This document shows positions 28,470 through 34,034 of a stretch of 36,581 nt of DNA, piece after piece (within the stretch, counting starts at the first letter, position 1; each line of letters starts with the position of its first letter). The notes under the pieces were generated by a model that worked only from the letters and a program-made list of their open reading frames with translations, had not been told where the DNA came from and ran no database searches. The DNA is from Burkholderiales bacterium (GTDB lineage: Bacteria; Pseudomonadota; Gammaproteobacteria; Burkholderiales; Burkholderiaceae_E), in contig CANKWX010000040.1 of assembly GCA_947487165.1 (NCBI GenBank), positions 1 to 36,581 of the forward strand, read 5' to 3'. The position numbers were made by a program, and so were the translations under genes.

Positions 28470-28850
28470 TCAAGGTCCGCTCTGGGGTCGCGCGCGAGCA
28501 ACCAGCGCGTCGAGCGGGCTGCGCACAGCGCCGCCGCCCATCTTCAATGCGTGTGTGTAGATCATGGTCGTTGCCACGTCCGCGTGACCGAGCAGGTCCT
28601 GAACTGTGCGGATGTCGTATCCGTCTTGCAGCAAGTGCGTCGCGAAGCAGTGGCGCAGCCCGTGAAGGCGGCTGAAGGCCTTGCACGAATGCGCGTATGC
28701 CTACTCAGTGCGCCGGCTGTAATGCAGGTAACGAACCCTTTCGCGCACCTGATCCAGCAGCCGAGGCGCACGCAAGGGCGGCATCGCATCGGCCGTGACG
28801 GGCCGCAGTGCTGCGCGCGGCTGCGCCGAACCAAGGTGAGTCTGTGGCAT
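28470..28850 (-). pseudogene. intI: Integron integrase (IntI family) pseudogene with internal deletion
   Basis: One continuous - strand frame begins at ATG 28850 and reads PRLLDQVRERVRYLHYSRRTE, the N-terminal SAM-like arm of integron integrases. It hits an amber codon at 28701-28703 where the family has Gln, resumes with AYAHS, then jumps to [22 protein letters not shown]. It ends with [18 protein letters not shown] and [12 protein letters not shown] before TGA at 28470-28472. The final RSPLD signature is typical of IntI rather than XerC/D. The H-x-x-R, second His and nucleophile Tyr (MIYTH) remain. About 200 central residues are missing, including the first catalytic Arg and the IntI-specific insertion. 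It is inactive. Its orientation, away from the cassettes at right, is the canonical integron layout. Confidence 0.88.
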
Positions 28851-28987: not shown

Positions 28988-29767
28988 ATGCACCGAAGAT
29001 CTCTGGTTCTTGCTTTCCTCGCCGCAGCGCTGCCTGGAACTGCTTCCGCCGACAGCTCACTTGTGATCTCGTCAGAGGGATCGCTGCCTCTGCTTCTTAC
29101 CGTACCGCATGATGGCGAAGAGCCCATTGGTTCGGTTCCAGTTCGCACCGTCGGGGCCACCGTTCGAGATCTGGGAACCCGACCGCTTGCGGAGAAAGTA
29201 GCCTCGCTTCTGGAGCAGAAACTTAAAGCTAGGCCGAGACTCGTGATCGCCAAGTTCAGCCGCAAGTACCTAGATGCAAATCGAGCGGAACAAGATGCCA
29301 TGCAGTCGGCGGAGGCTCTACCCACCTATCAGGCTTACCATGCCGAAATTGCTCGCCATGTTTCCGAGCTGCGTGCGGCATTTCCTCAAGGCGCTTTGCT
29401 CCTAGACATACACGGACAATCAGAAGATTTAAACACCACCTTCCGAGGTACCCGCGCTGGACTGACGGCCAAGGCTCTTGTTCAGAAGCACGGCATAGAA
29501 GCAATCCAAGGTGAGAAGAGCATCCTCGGTGGGCTGGCCTCAAAGGGCTACAACGTCAACCCCAGTCTCGGTTCGGCATCGCCAGAAGAAGATCGCCGCT
29601 TTGCTGGCGGACACACCGTCTCCTTCTATGGCAGCCATCGGCCTCAAGGCATTGATGCAATCCAATTTGAATTTGGTAAAAATCAGCGCACAAGTTGGAG
29701 CTTGGCCGAGCATTTTGCGGAGGCCATCGCTACGTTCCTCACCCACTATGGCTACTTGGCAAAGTGA
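28988..29767 (+). CDS. Exported N-formylglutamate-amidohydrolase-family protein (cassette 1)
   Basis: This is a 259-residue zinc-hydrolase-fold protein related to N-formylglutamate amidohydrolases. Family landmarks are LTVPHDGEE near residue 40, SRKYLDANRAEQDA near 93 and LLLDIHGQSED near 142. A signal peptide (MHRRSLVLAFLAAALPGTASA) shows that it is exported, unlike the cytosolic HutG enzymes. The substrate is therefore more likely an envelope or environmental formyl/acyl-amino compound than a histidine-pathway intermediate. The stop codon lies 1 bp before an attC site and the gene points away from intI, so it is the first surviving gene cassette. Confidence 0.75.
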   Translation: MHRRSLVLAFLAAALPGTASADSSLVISSEGSLPLLLTVPHDGEEPIGSVPVRTVGATVRDLGTRPLAEKVASLLEQKLKARPRLVIAKFSRKYLDANRAEQDAMQSAEALPTYQAYHAEIARHVSELRAAFPQGALLLDIHGQSEDLNTTFRGTRAGLTAKALVQKHGIEAIQGEKSILGGLASKGYNVNPSLGSASPEEDRRFAGGHTVSFYGSHRPQGIDAIQFEFGKNQRTSWSLAEHFAEAIATFLTHYGYLAK

Positions 29768-30743: not shown

Positions 30744-31115
30744 TCAGCTTATACAAGCGGCAACCAGCATACCTGTCGAAATCGATAGACATGCCAGAAC
30801 AACCCCCAGTGCAACATTACCGGTCTCGACTCCATGGGCTTGCCTGCGAATTATCTGAAACAAGATGAACTGCATCGCACACGCAATCGCTGCCCAACGA
30901 ACCATTTCGATCAGATCATGTGTGAAGTAAATCGCGGATGCTATTGGTATAGCTTGCCCGATTGTCGCCCCGCCAAGCGAAAGTGACGCAGCAACATTGC
31001 CGTCGCGTATCAAAGCCAGTTCCCGATAGGGTGTTATCCAAAGATAAACTGAGATACAAATTCCAAGCAGGAGAGCTGCTGTAATCAAATAGGCGACTGA
31101 CATTAGAGCCGGCAT
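30744..31115 (-). CDS. DUF350 family membrane protein (YjfL-like)
   Basis: This protein of 123 residues has four hydrophobic helices. The DUF350 signature is clear: ITPYRELALIRDGNVAASLS after helix 1, then LGGATIGQAIPIASAI. DUF350 proteins are inner-membrane proteins of unknown biochemical role, often encoded next to glutathionylspermidine-synthetase-like ligases and DUF1190 proteins, as here. It is the last gene of the - strand operon, 12 bp after the ligase gene, and it converges with the cassette array. Base composition is AT-richer than the core block. Confidence 0.9.
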   Translation of the reverse strand: MPALMSVAYLITAALLLGICISVYLWITPYRELALIRDGNVAASLSLGGATIGQAIPIASAIYFTHDLIEMVRWAAIACAMQFILFQIIRRQAHGVETGNVALGVVLACLSISTGMLVAACIS

Positions 31116-31127
31116 CTTTTAATCCAA

Positions 31128-32246
31128 TTAAAAAACATGAGGGACAAAATGACTCATGTTGGTTGTTATAGGCGTAACATCTTCACGGATACATATTCCG
31201 GCAGGCTCACCGCCAACCACCCACGAGCCGATAACAGGGTACATGCCGTGAAAGCAAGGTAAAGAAAAAAGAGCCTGGTAAACATAACCCTCAGCTCCAT
31301 ACACGCCTTGACTACTGCGACAGGTCAACTGACCGTCTTCATAGAATTCGATATCTGCACCCTCTCTCGAAAACAAAGGCTTCTTCGCGAAAGCAGTCAA
31401 GTCATGTGGGTGTTCAAAATACGTCTCAAGCAGGTTCGGATGATTTGGAAACAGCTCCCACAATATTGCCAGCATGCCTTTGCAGGACAGGACTGACTTC
31501 CAGATCGGTTCGACGAAACGGGTTCCCGAGTCGAAAACATGTTCGCCAAAGGGTTCACGCATCATCCATTCCCAAGGATAAAGTTTGAACAGACATTTGA
31601 TGGACTTGTCCAGTTTATCAACGAACTGAGCTTTCGAGTCATCCCATCCGATATCCTCGAGAGACACGTGTTCAACCTGTTTTCCAGCCTGCATCGCAGT
31701 GTCCATCAGATAGGCAATTGCGACCCAATCTTCTTCATTATTGGATATGGACGCAAAATGGATAGGGCCATCGTCCGGCAAGGCTTTCCAGCGCGCGACA
31801 AGCTTTTCATGCAAAGAGTTGAACTGATCATCCTCGGCAAAAACATCTTCCAGCCAATACCATTGCGCGACAGCTGATTCGAGGATGGAAGTAGGCGTGT
31901 CTGCGTTATATTCCAACATCTTCGGAGGATTAATTCCGTCATACGCTAGATCAAATCGCCCATACAAACTGAAATCGTCTGCGAAAAACGAAGACTTGAT
32001 CAACGGATGAAAAGCTTCAGGTATTTTCAGGTCAAAAAGGCGATCATGTTCAATCGCATATTTGACGGCCTGAAGGCACAACCTGTGCAATTCGGCAGTC
32101 GCCGCCTCAAGGTCATCAATCTGAGCCGCAGTAAAGCGGTAGCAAACATCCTCCTTCCAATAACTATCCCACTCCCAGAACGAAAGTCCAATTGACTCCA
32201 GCTTTTTCCCGAAGTCGGGCCGAACTGCACTAGCCAACCTTTTCAT
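31128..32246 (-). CDS. Glutathionylspermidine-synthetase-like ATP-grasp ligase (YgiC/YjfC type)
   Basis: This is an ATP-grasp carboxylate-amine ligase domain of the Gsp synthetase family without the amidase domain. Family segments are RFDLAYDG then PKMLEYNADTPTSILESAV (about residues 95-125). The C-terminal block is YPVIGSWVVGGEPAGICIRE then PITTNMSHFVPH. ATP-grasp acidic residues (E in LEYN, N in YNAD) are in place. I choose ATG 32246 (372 residues), 4 bp after the DUF1190 gene; an in-frame ATG at 32285 would overlap that gene by 35 bp. Known relatives act on, or are proposed to act on, polyamines or peptides. The neighbouring homospermidine synthase points to homospermidine as the amine, which is an inference. 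Confidence 0.9.
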   Translation of the reverse strand: MKRLASAVRPDFGKKLESIGLSFWEWDSYWKEDVCYRFTAAQIDDLEAATAELHRLCLQAVKYAIEHDRLFDLKIPEAFHPLIKSSFFADDFSLYGRFDLAYDGINPPKMLEYNADTPTSILESAVAQWYWLEDVFAEDDQFNSLHEKLVARWKALPDDGPIHFASISNNEEDWVAIAYLMDTAMQAGKQVEHVSLEDIGWDDSKAQFVDKLDKSIKCLFKLYPWEWMMREPFGEHVFDSGTRFVEPIWKSVLSCKGMLAILWELFPNHPNLLETYFEHPHDLTAFAKKPLFSREGADIEFYEDGQLTCRSSQGVYGAEGYVYQALFSLPCFHGMYPVIGSWVVGGEPAGICIREDVTPITTNMSHFVPHVF

Positions 32247-32250
32247 ATCA

Positions 32251-32679
32251 TTACCCGCCGCGTCCAAGGGAACTGAACTGACCAAATCCGCCTCGGGTTA
32301 CAGTTCCCGCATCTCTAACGCCCAAGCTGTGTGAAAAGGCGGCACCATTGGGACGTGCAGAAGGCGCCGCTTGATGTAGTCCGCTATCGGCAACAATGAC
32401 TGGATGTCCGGCCTCCCTGTCCCAATAGTATCTGGGCCCGTTGTATCGCCCGGACTGATTGTTATCGCCGCTGTTCCCTCCCGAACTTGTCTCGCCATCA
32501 TTATTCTTAGTGCAGCTTTCCTCAGTTCCCCAATCCTGAATACACGCCGCCTTAGTTGCGTAATAATCTTGCTTCAAGTTTACGGTGCTTTTTTCGTCGG
32601 AACGCTGAGAGAGTTTAGAGCCGGCTATTCCAACCCCTATCATCAGCAAACATATGACTTCAGATCGTCTAATATTCAT
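32251..32679 (-). CDS. YgiB/DUF1190-family protein
   Basis: This is a 142-residue protein with one N-terminal hydrophobic segment (VICLLMIGVGIAG) but no lipobox cysteine. A cysteine-bearing segment ATKAACIQDWGTEESC follows, then a Ser/Gly/Asn-rich linker, PRYYWDREAGHPV, and the C-terminal TVTRGGFGQFSSLGRGG. The TVTRGGFG motif is the mark of the YgiB/YjfM (DUF1190) family. Its start overlaps the homospermidine synthase stop (ATGA). Its function is unknown. Its constant pairing with YgiC-type ligases suggests that it is a partner or target of the ligase. Confidence 0.82.
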   Translation of the reverse strand: MNIRRSEVICLLMIGVGIAGSKLSQRSDEKSTVNLKQDYYATKAACIQDWGTEESCTKNNDGETSSGGNSGDNNQSGRYNGPRYYWDREAGHPVIVADSGLHQAAPSARPNGAAFSHSLGVRDAGTVTRGGFGQFSSLGRGG

Positions 32680-34034
32680 GCTTTCTCAATTTGCTGGGAC
32701 GACTCGAATTGTTCGACGTGCGTAGCCAAAACACCACTGAAACCTGCGCCAGTGTCCGGACGCCAATCCGTTTCAACCATACTGACTTTTCCAAGGTAGG
32801 GTCGTGCAATATCGAGGACTTTCTCGCTGTCGAGCGACTCTGCCTCGACAACTCCGGCGCGAGGGTTATCGAACATCCATGTTAGTGCAGCGATTACACC
32901 TGCGACCACCTGCAAGGATGTCGCATTATTGAAAGGTACCAGCCGGCGCGCCTCAGAACAATTCAGTGTTGTACCGTGCCACAACGATCCGGTTTCGTGA
33001 ACCAGCAGAACTCCGACCTCATCAAAACCTTGCAGTGTCGGGCTGTTCATTACTCGAAAGTGTGTTACCGGTTGGCCCAACTGGAGGTTGCGCAAACTTG
33101 CCTTTGCCTTCAAGGAAGGGTTATAGACATAACCAACAGTGGGGCTATAATCAGCAGTATAGAGCAGTTCGCCGATCGAAATCACTTCGTGGTGAGTGAC
33201 CAATATTCCATTTTGTTCCCCCAGCGACGGAGTCCATGATTTAACTTGTATATTTGCTCCGTTTTTCGTCAGTCGAAGTGCATTATTATGCGTTGTTGAC
33301 TGAGCCTCGCCAGGAAAAAAATCTTCAGAACTCCCCCAGAATACTTCACTTTTTTGCAGCCATGCTTCACTGTATAAGCCTTCCGCAGACCATGTATTGA
33401 CGAATTCACCGTACTGCAGCGACTGATTGTCATCCTGAGTATCCCGTTCAACAATGTGAACGGCCCTGACCCCCAGTAACGAAGCAAGCTCACCCCAGGA
33501 TGGAGTCTGATCAACAGAAATATTTTTACGGCTTGCCAGACTTCGCAATGCTGCCTTGACGAAATGACTGATCAAGCCAGGATTCATTCCGTGTGCGATA
33601 ATTGCCGTTGCGGCGCCGGGCTCAAAGAGCGATAACGCCTGCCGGCGCAGCCAAGCGTTAGTCGATGCCAATGTTATGGAATCTTCGATGGTATAGCCGT
33701 TTGCCCAAGGCTCCACGCATGTATCCAGATACAGTACATCATTGGCCTTGCACCATGTGATTAGTGCGACCGAAGAAACATTGACCGACAGATTGATCAA
33801 CAAATCCCCATCCTGAAGATGACGGGCTAAAACATCGGAATAATTTGAAGGCGTAAGAGGCAGGAGAGTATGGCTGACCCCCAGATAATTAGCCGCAATA
33901 AGACCGTTATCATCTGCAGCAATAATTCTTATTTGTGACGGATGGACTGAAAAAGCGCTCAGAAATAAAGGCAGGAGCCCTTGTCCAACAGAGCCAAATC
34001 CAATCATCAGGACTTTTTTATTAAACTTGATCAC
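32676..34034 (-). CDS. hss: Homospermidine synthase
   Basis: This is a 452-residue enzyme of the saccharopine-dehydrogenase-like fold. It uses NAD to make homospermidine from putrescine (or spermidine plus putrescine) in the cytosol. The Rossmann motif GFGSVGQG is at 12-19. Family segments are LINLSVNVSSVALI, YLDTCVEPW, AHGMNPGLISHFVK, HIVERDTQ and GEFVNTWSAEG, in the order I know from bacterial homospermidine synthases. The GTG start at 34034 has a poor ribosome site. It leads an operon with the DUF1190, ligase and DUF350 genes and has an AT-rich composition (28 G/C in the 60 bases 33481-33540). Confidence 0.92.
   Translation of the reverse strand: MIKFNKKVLMIGFGSVGQGLLPLFLSAFSVHPSQIRIIAADDNGLIAANYLGVSHTLLPLTPSNYSDVLARHLQDGDLLINLSVNVSSVALITWCKANDVLYLDTCVEPWANGYTIEDSITLASTNAWLRRQALSLFEPGAATAIIAHGMNPGLISHFVKAALRSLASRKNISVDQTPSWGELASLLGVRAVHIVERDTQDDNQSLQYGEFVNTWSAEGLYSEAWLQKSEVFWGSSEDFFPGEAQSTTHNNALRLTKNGANIQVKSWTPSLGEQNGILVTHHEVISIGELLYTADYSPTVGYVYNPSLKAKASLRNLQLGQPVTHFRVMNSPTLQGFDEVGVLLVHETGSLWHGTTLNCSEARRLVPFNNATSLQVVAGVIAALTWMFDNPRAGVVEAESLDSEKVLDIARPYLGKVSMVETDWRPDTGAGFSGVLATHVEQFESSQQIEKA

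Follow-up and report, generated by a model that had tools for sequence, protein, structure and literature searches.

The window analysed here, a stretch of 36,581 nucleotides taken at its full length from contig CANKWX010000040.1 of a Burkholderiales bacterium (GenBank assembly GCA_947487165.1), carries on its minus strand, from position 34034 down to 30744, a block of four genes whose open reading frames (ORFs) encode in turn a homospermidine synthase (HSS), a DUF1190-like protein, an ATP-grasp ligase of the YgiC type and a DUF350 protein. This block is a real and recurrent mobile module of a kind that has already been published. The core hss-ligase linkage is not new: phage Motura and several beta-proteobacteria were reported to carry hss in a cluster with a gss homologue, from which glutathionylhomospermidine was suggested as the product (PMC9992855, PNAS 2023). 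We give a little less than an even chance to the idea that the block is a self-contained mobile module for polyamine conjugation, in which homospermidine would be joined to the tail of the DUF1190-like protein.

The original prediction, made from the letters of the window, described four tightly packed minus-strand genes with one ATGA overlap and gaps of 4 and 12 bp, and both coordinates and spacing were confirmed: the overlap joins the HSS and DUF1190-like genes, 4 bp separate the latter from the ligase gene, and 12 bp lie between the ligase and DUF350 genes.

Identity, recurrence and transfer of the block

Three of the four gene names exceed the Pfam cut-off, are backed by a PDB structure, or both, the DUF1190 name being the exception. 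The HSS product passes the cut-offs of PF03435 (81.5 bits) and PF16653 (59.5 bits), that is, the N-terminal NAD-binding and the C-terminal domains of saccharopine dehydrogenase, and its closest solved structures in the PDB comparison are homospermidine synthases (352 bits). The residues described as catalytically relevant in the B. viridis enzyme (Glu117, Asn162, Glu210, Trp229, Glu237, His296 and Glu298; PMC8489232) are kept 7/7 in the window as E108, N151, E196, W215, E223, H281 and E283, and the same seven are kept in 50/50 aligned HSS, that of the window included. Asp94 of the ionic slide (B. viridis numbering) corresponds to Asn85 in the window and is Asp in 34/50 HSS, so it was not taken as defining. 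By these residues the active site of the window HSS is intact, and formation of homospermidine from putrescine is predicted. The genome of the window (98% complete, 3.6% contamination) encodes one HSS and gave no match to PF01564 (spermidine synthase) or PF02675 (S-adenosylmethionine (AdoMet) decarboxylase), the carboxyspermidine enzymes not having been searched by their own family model. It holds one PF02784 gene that reads like a diaminopimelate decarboxylase on inspection of the sequence, and one gene of the PF01276 ornithine/lysine/arginine decarboxylase family, which could be the source of putrescine.

The ligase matches PF03738 with 480 bits over residues 27-385 of a 385-aa ORF, as a stand-alone domain without the amidase part of Gss. 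Its closest PDB chain is E. coli YgiC (7uk8, 326 bits), E. coli Gss reaching only 102 bits, and it keeps the residues that are near-invariant across 103 relatives. It is a ligase of the YgiC/YjfC type by these comparisons, predicted to use ATP to link a carboxylate to a polyamine through an amide bond. RefSeq names E. coli YgiC and YjfC peptide-spermidine ligase, an activity that the title of Pederick 2023 also assigns to both (cited in PMC12568646 and PMC10948618); the earlier statement that the YgiB/YgiC and YjfL/M/C sets lack an assigned product is therefore out of date. The DUF350 gene (PF03994, 101.1 bits for a gathering score of 26) encodes what is taken to be a membrane protein, modelled by AlphaFold as four long helices and one short with a mean predicted local distance difference test score of 93; a fold search against the PDB gave no match at E <2. 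As for the DUF1190-like gene, it scores 9.1 bits to PF06693, below the gathering score of 22, where its relative in locus L044 scores 21.7 and E. coli YgiB 187. A profile comparison (hhalign) reached a probability of 96.7%, over 14 columns only, with a Cys-aromatic-Gly motif common to both sides, and the window protein shares the tail RGGFG with E. coli YgiB. We make the assignment because of the relatives, the profile comparison and this tail taken together.

The recurrence of hss beside PF03738-type ligases, for which a survey of other genomes had been suggested, is supported by 4/19 genomes of the window's order, by a lake genome (L052) and by phage Motura. Samples of 399 genomes from the order, 349 from the phylum and 369 from the class were compared, the HSS region of G070 being left out. 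In the order sample HSS occurs in 61/399 genomes, the ligase in 36/399 and both in 19, four of which (G000, which is the window's genome, G448, G545 and G679) have the two genes within 2 kb, where 0.019 linked genomes would be expected with HSS placed at random (simple Poisson, uncorrected for kinship). The phylum sample holds HSS in 57/349 genomes, the ligase in 71/349 and both in 22, and the linkage was found by eye only in G000 and G679. HSS is present in 15/369 genomes of the class sample, and 14 regions inspected from 13 of these showed no ligase. An alignment of two HSS rows, A2, scanned over the genomes of 84,980 species returned three loci, and a single-protein HSS scan of the same genome contigs had no match; A2 found none among viral contigs, although phage Motura sits in the phage collection.

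Among named records, those closest to the block are from Betaproteobacteria, one of them L052, a metagenome-assembled genome from a lake that has all four genes in the window's order. Burkholderiales in the broad sense as the order of the window also agrees with a stretch of G679, a genome of that order, whose best matches among plasmids are in Burkholderia, Cupriavidus, Ideonella, Comamonas and Sphaerotilus (75-79% identity). The locus of G448 (L047, 6676-8478, plus strand; also public record JAJZTQ010000035, L053) joins HSS and a DUF1190-like part in a single 600-aa ORF, which may be translated as one protein. The word "fused" in the original prediction hence suits this relative and not the window, where HSS is a separate gene. 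HSS is flanked by two DUF1190-type genes in G545, and the order in G679, which has a second HSS elsewhere in its genome, is HSS, ligase, DUF1190-type, DUF350.

Achromobacter phage Motura has HSS, DUF1190-like, ligase and DUF350-like genes ordered as in the window, from which it differs by an extra 91-aa gene between the last two; the full run is transporter-type binding protein, HSS, 127-aa DUF1190-like protein, ligase, 91-aa protein and DUF350-like protein (the last by blastp). The DUF1190-like and DUF350-like genes are annotated there as hypothetical, and the 127-aa protein has, by reading, a lipobox-like start and the tail RGGFGSTGSSFSAGG. Its ligase is 57-58% identical to five ligases of the window's group (57% to that of the window) and at most 50% to the next two. 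Among the records of the phage collection, 137 phage-filed ones match the ligase (96 Acinetobacter or Aeromonas; some records look bacterial), and only the two Motura records match HSS.

In the E. coli sets ygiBC and yjfIJKLMC, too, the gene immediately preceding a PF03738-type ligase is a DUF1190 gene, and the yjf set includes a DUF350 gene (yjfL). They differ in that no amine-making gene is annotated alongside, and in that DUF350 lies upstream in the yjf set and is not annotated beside ygiBC; YjfI, YjfK and the PspA-like YjfJ were not found beside the window ligase. DUF350, DUF1190, ATP-grasp and polyamine genes are also listed together in operons linked to PspA and CesT (PMC11237479), from which the window differs by having no YjfJ/PspA match within 6 kb of its ligase.

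That the block is AT-richer than the core genes, which had been read as a sign of transfer, is borne out. Its four genes have a GC content of 48-52% and a third-position GC content (GC3) of 0.45-0.51, against 58-66% and 0.68-0.80 for 15 window genes outside the block, and the 12 further genomes of the window's family that the order samples include all lack both HSS and ligase. The block of L052 is AT-rich in the same way (GC3 0.36-0.40 against 0.51-0.62 in adjacent ORFs). The block is, in short, mobile.

A ligase tree of 101 rows was built from 103 loci, excluding L149 (a TGA inside the ligase frame) and L150 (a fragment). In it the window ligase groups with those of L052, L047, L124 and L044, the last of which has no HSS in cis (support 100/99), the G679 ligase stands elsewhere, and the ligases linked to SpeD/SpeE belong to another branch. 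The HSS tree (50 rows, without the lower-scoring HSS of the order sample and without L006, a near-copy of L005) unites the five block HSS and that of L054 in one group (98/95), where branches are long and the placement of the G679 HSS is unsure. Phage Motura is in neither tree. By these trees HSS is linked to ligases of at least two branches, and one or more origins of HSS are possible.

Amine-making enzymes upstream of the ligase

The slot upstream of the ligase was compared over 103 ligase loci by tblastn within 6 kb of the ligase; for the phylum sample this covered 65 of 80 places, 13 being omitted (all <270 bits) and 2 being already in the set. HSS is present in 4 of the 36 loci of the order sample, a SpeE-type aminopropyltransferase in 11 (10 also with SpeD, the AdoMet decarboxylase), neither in 21 and both in 0; L052 is a fifth HSS-linked ligase locus. 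The SpeE and SpeD genes of the 11 loci lie upstream on the ligase's strand, with an opposite-strand mechanical ORF intervening in L045, and PF01564 was confirmed in 5/5 SpeE-type neighbours tested, 2 of which are fused to PF02675. Loci of this sort in the window's order share the DUF1190-ligase-DUF350 core and a triamine-type enzyme upstream, and differ from the window in that HSS is replaced by AdoMet decarboxylase and aminopropyltransferase, either as two genes or as a fusion. Fusions of the two were seen in L045 (4177-5478) and L136 (9195-10454), near DUF1190-type, ligase and DUF350 genes.

The mutual exclusion of HSS and SpeE at ligase loci is not significant by itself, about 1.2 co-occurrences being expected by chance. 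Of the 11 SpeE-linked genomes 1 holds HSS, as against 18 of the order's 25 remaining ligase-bearing genomes (p 0.0008, without control for kinship). At the tblastn sensitivity used, neither HSS nor SpeD/SpeE was found in the 65 loci of the phylum sample or at the E. coli ygiBC locus, and at the BLAST cut-off used both are absent within 6 kb in 87/103 ligase loci. The claim that the HSS would name the amine of the whole ligase family therefore fails, given these 87 loci and the 11/36 loci of the order with SpeE instead.

The Gly-Gly tail and the proposed conjugation

A motif search around the ligases gave 85 DUF1190-type proteins, of which 61 end in Gly-Gly (GG) and 66 in Gly, GG making up 21/952 internal dipeptides (2%) of the same tails; after clustering at 50% identity, 22/35 clusters end in GG. 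The 85 tails come from a search that missed 19/103 ligase loci, one spurious ORF having been excluded beforehand. When only the immediate upstream neighbour of the ligase is counted, 58/81 end in GG as against 39/1031 mechanical ORFs of at least 200 aa in the same loci, a background that includes some of the same proteins. This second search missed 22/103 loci: on inspection by eye 8 carry a variant of the tail (7 GG, 1 GS), 5 have the motif gene elsewhere within 4 kb, 2 lie at contig ends and 7 have none. A GG end is also seen in YgiB and YjfM of E. coli.

Glutathionylspermidine synthetase couples spermidine to glutathione through the carboxylate of the glycine residue. YgiC-type ligases are related to this enzyme according to the PDB comparison of the window ligase. 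In fission yeast SUMO, which ends in LGG, is conjugated to spermidine (PMC12270671). We regard the C-terminus of DUF1190 as a candidate acceptor because of the GG tails together with the synthetase chemistry and the SUMO precedent. The open-licence texts that we searched name no natural acceptor for the YgiC/YjfC ligases, and we found in them no proposal of the DUF1190 tail for this role. In the scheme that we propose, HSS would join two putrescines into sym-homospermidine; the ligase, at the cost of ATP, would activate the carboxylate of a C-terminus and bond it to one of the amines of homospermidine. This C-terminus would most likely be the one with which the DUF1190-like protein of the adjacent gene ends, Gly-Gly, and the product would be a protein anchored in the membrane and polycationic at its tip. 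DUF350 may hold the complex at the inner membrane or pass the product across. The parts of this scheme do not stand equally firm: homospermidine is quite probably the amine used by the ligase, the DUF1190 tail is its acceptor with chances that we put noticeably below even, and the part given to DUF350 is a weak suggestion. Of the original prediction that the operon makes homospermidine and ligates it to a peptide or protein, possibly the DUF1190 protein, the dedicated amine-making enzyme beside the ligase stands and DUF1190 is a plausible acceptor, while we infer the ligation itself.

Several observations weigh against this scheme. HSS and ligase lie on different contigs in 15/19 genomes of the order that carry both and apart in 20/22 such genomes of the phylum sample. 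The HSS of L054 (Candidatus Nitrotoga), 94% identical to that of L052 and beside the same large upstream gene, has no DUF1190-like, ligase or DUF350 gene within the 13.3 kb around it, and there is no DUF350 gene near the L047 block. As many as 24/85 DUF1190-type tails end otherwise than in GG. No DUF1190-type gene was found by motif or by eye in L175, L176, L181, L185, L187, L190 and L210 (7/103 loci, contig-end cases aside), 5 of which have PspA-type neighbours instead. DUF1190 has been called a metal-chelating lipoprotein, a different role (PMC11237479). Its positive N-terminus and hydrophobic segment suggest, by reading, that after export the tail would probably lie outside the cytoplasm; as there is no ATP there, the ligase would need to act before export. 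We also list here ligase residue 365, a candidate mark of amine specificity that is not taken as proof since a kinship-aware test gave no clear answer; it is Cys in 11/38 ligases from HSS-bearing genomes against 1/64 others, and in phage Motura too.

The seven ligase loci with no DUF1190-type gene would be easier to understand if the ligase made a small soluble conjugate, glutathionylhomospermidine or a short peptide joined to homospermidine, with DUF1190 and DUF350 as accessory carrier, sensor or exporter. Such a product is what the published work suggested from the clustering of hss and gss, where we propose a protein C-terminus (PMC9992855), and PF03738 itself is named for glutathionylspermidine synthase. 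Yet the activity of YgiC is said to differ from that of Gsp (PMC12506659, citing Sui 2012), the window ligase is far closer to YgiC than to E. coli Gss by the bit scores given above, and a soluble product would leave both the conserved DUF1190 tail and the HSS-DUF1190 ORF unexplained; we consider it unlikely, while keeping it as the foremost competitor of conjugation to the DUF1190 tail.

A second alternative, which we find improbable, is that HSS supplies free homospermidine to the cell and adjoins the ligase through shared control or joint transfer. It agrees with HSS being the only triamine-making gene in the window's genome among the families searched, so that the cell may need it, with the solitary HSS of the Nitrotoga locus, and with the linked HSS being a small minority (4/61 genomes of the order and 2/57 of the phylum sample). 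It sits poorly with G679, where one of two HSS genes lies within the ligase block, with SpeD/SpeE upstream in other ligase loci, with HSS in frame with a DUF1190-like part in L047, and with a phage, Motura, that carries the gene set. Least probable is an HSS shifted in function, with the ligase product or DUF1190 in place of putrescine as recipient of the aminobutyl group, for which one may invoke the long-branched group of block HSS (98/95), the in-frame HSS-DUF1190 ORF and, as precedent, the aminopropyltransferase-like proteins that reportedly act on other substrates (Li 2019, cited in PMC11237479), and against which all seven catalytic residues are unchanged.

To return to conjugation on the DUF1190 tail, a broader version of it would make DUF1190 proteins bacterial Gly-Gly-tailed modifiers capped by the adjacent ligase, with the amine set by the operon: homospermidine with HSS, a spermidine-type amine with SpeD/SpeE, and otherwise whatever the cell pool offers. 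We put this forward tentatively, as something rather more likely to be wrong than right. If the DUF1190 tail is indeed the acceptor, a widespread bacterial family would cap proteins with polyamines, much as SUMO is conjugated to spermidine in fission yeast. With HSS in some loci and SpeD/SpeE in others, nature has made a swap from which the choice of amine could be read in genes and mass spectra. The module is most useful in that, through it, simple mass spectrometry can test both which acceptor and which amine the YgiC family uses.

Gene coordinates and neighbouring features

Table 1. The four genes of the block, with positions in the window.
Feature	Position	Strand	Basis and remarks
hss, NAD-dependent homospermidine synthase, saccharopine-dehydrogenase type, 452 aa	32676-34034	-	GTG start; Pfam, PDB, catalytic residues
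DUF1190-like (YgiB/YjfM-like) small protein, 142 aa	32251-32679	-	N-terminal hydrophobic segment; C-terminal RGGFGQFSSLGRGG
YgiC/YjfC-type ATP-grasp ligase, predicted peptide-polyamine ligase, 372 aa from ATG 32246	31128-32246	-	PF03738; mechanical ORF begins TTG 32285
DUF350 (YjfL-type) protein, 123 aa	30744-31115	-	PF03994

Past the DUF350 end of the block, at a distance of 2 kb, lies the remnant of a tyrosine recombinase (integrase; 28496-28760, minus strand), broken and with its middle seemingly missing. By eye it resembles integron integrases, with LLDQVRERVRYLHYSRRTE upstream and then a stop, a naming that comes from reading and has no database match behind it. The N-formylglutamate amidohydrolase-like gene at 28988-29767 (plus strand; PF05013, 45 bits) is intermediate in composition (GC 56%, GC3 0.54). 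Promoter-like and terminator-like sites between 30000 and 34900 are near the shuffle level (3 vs 4.9 and 7 vs 4.8, respectively), and Rfam at gathering scores gave none.

The single plasmid and three phage ligase loci that were inspected have no annotated HSS, and one further phage-filed record with the ligase resembles host DNA by its gene names. HSS matches occur in 44 plasmid records, 17 of them Pseudomonas, and the plasmid HSS genes inspected (4/44 records) had no match to the window ligase by tblastn. A conjugative plasmid of Pseudomonas aeruginosa (L049, 5497-6906) carries an HSS-like gene, 40% identical, that adjoins EamA and GNAT genes, and on a plasmid of Alteromonas mediterranea (L051, 7992-9416) an HSS-like gene stands within a non-ribosomal peptide cluster and has a cyclic-peptide exporter as its neighbour.

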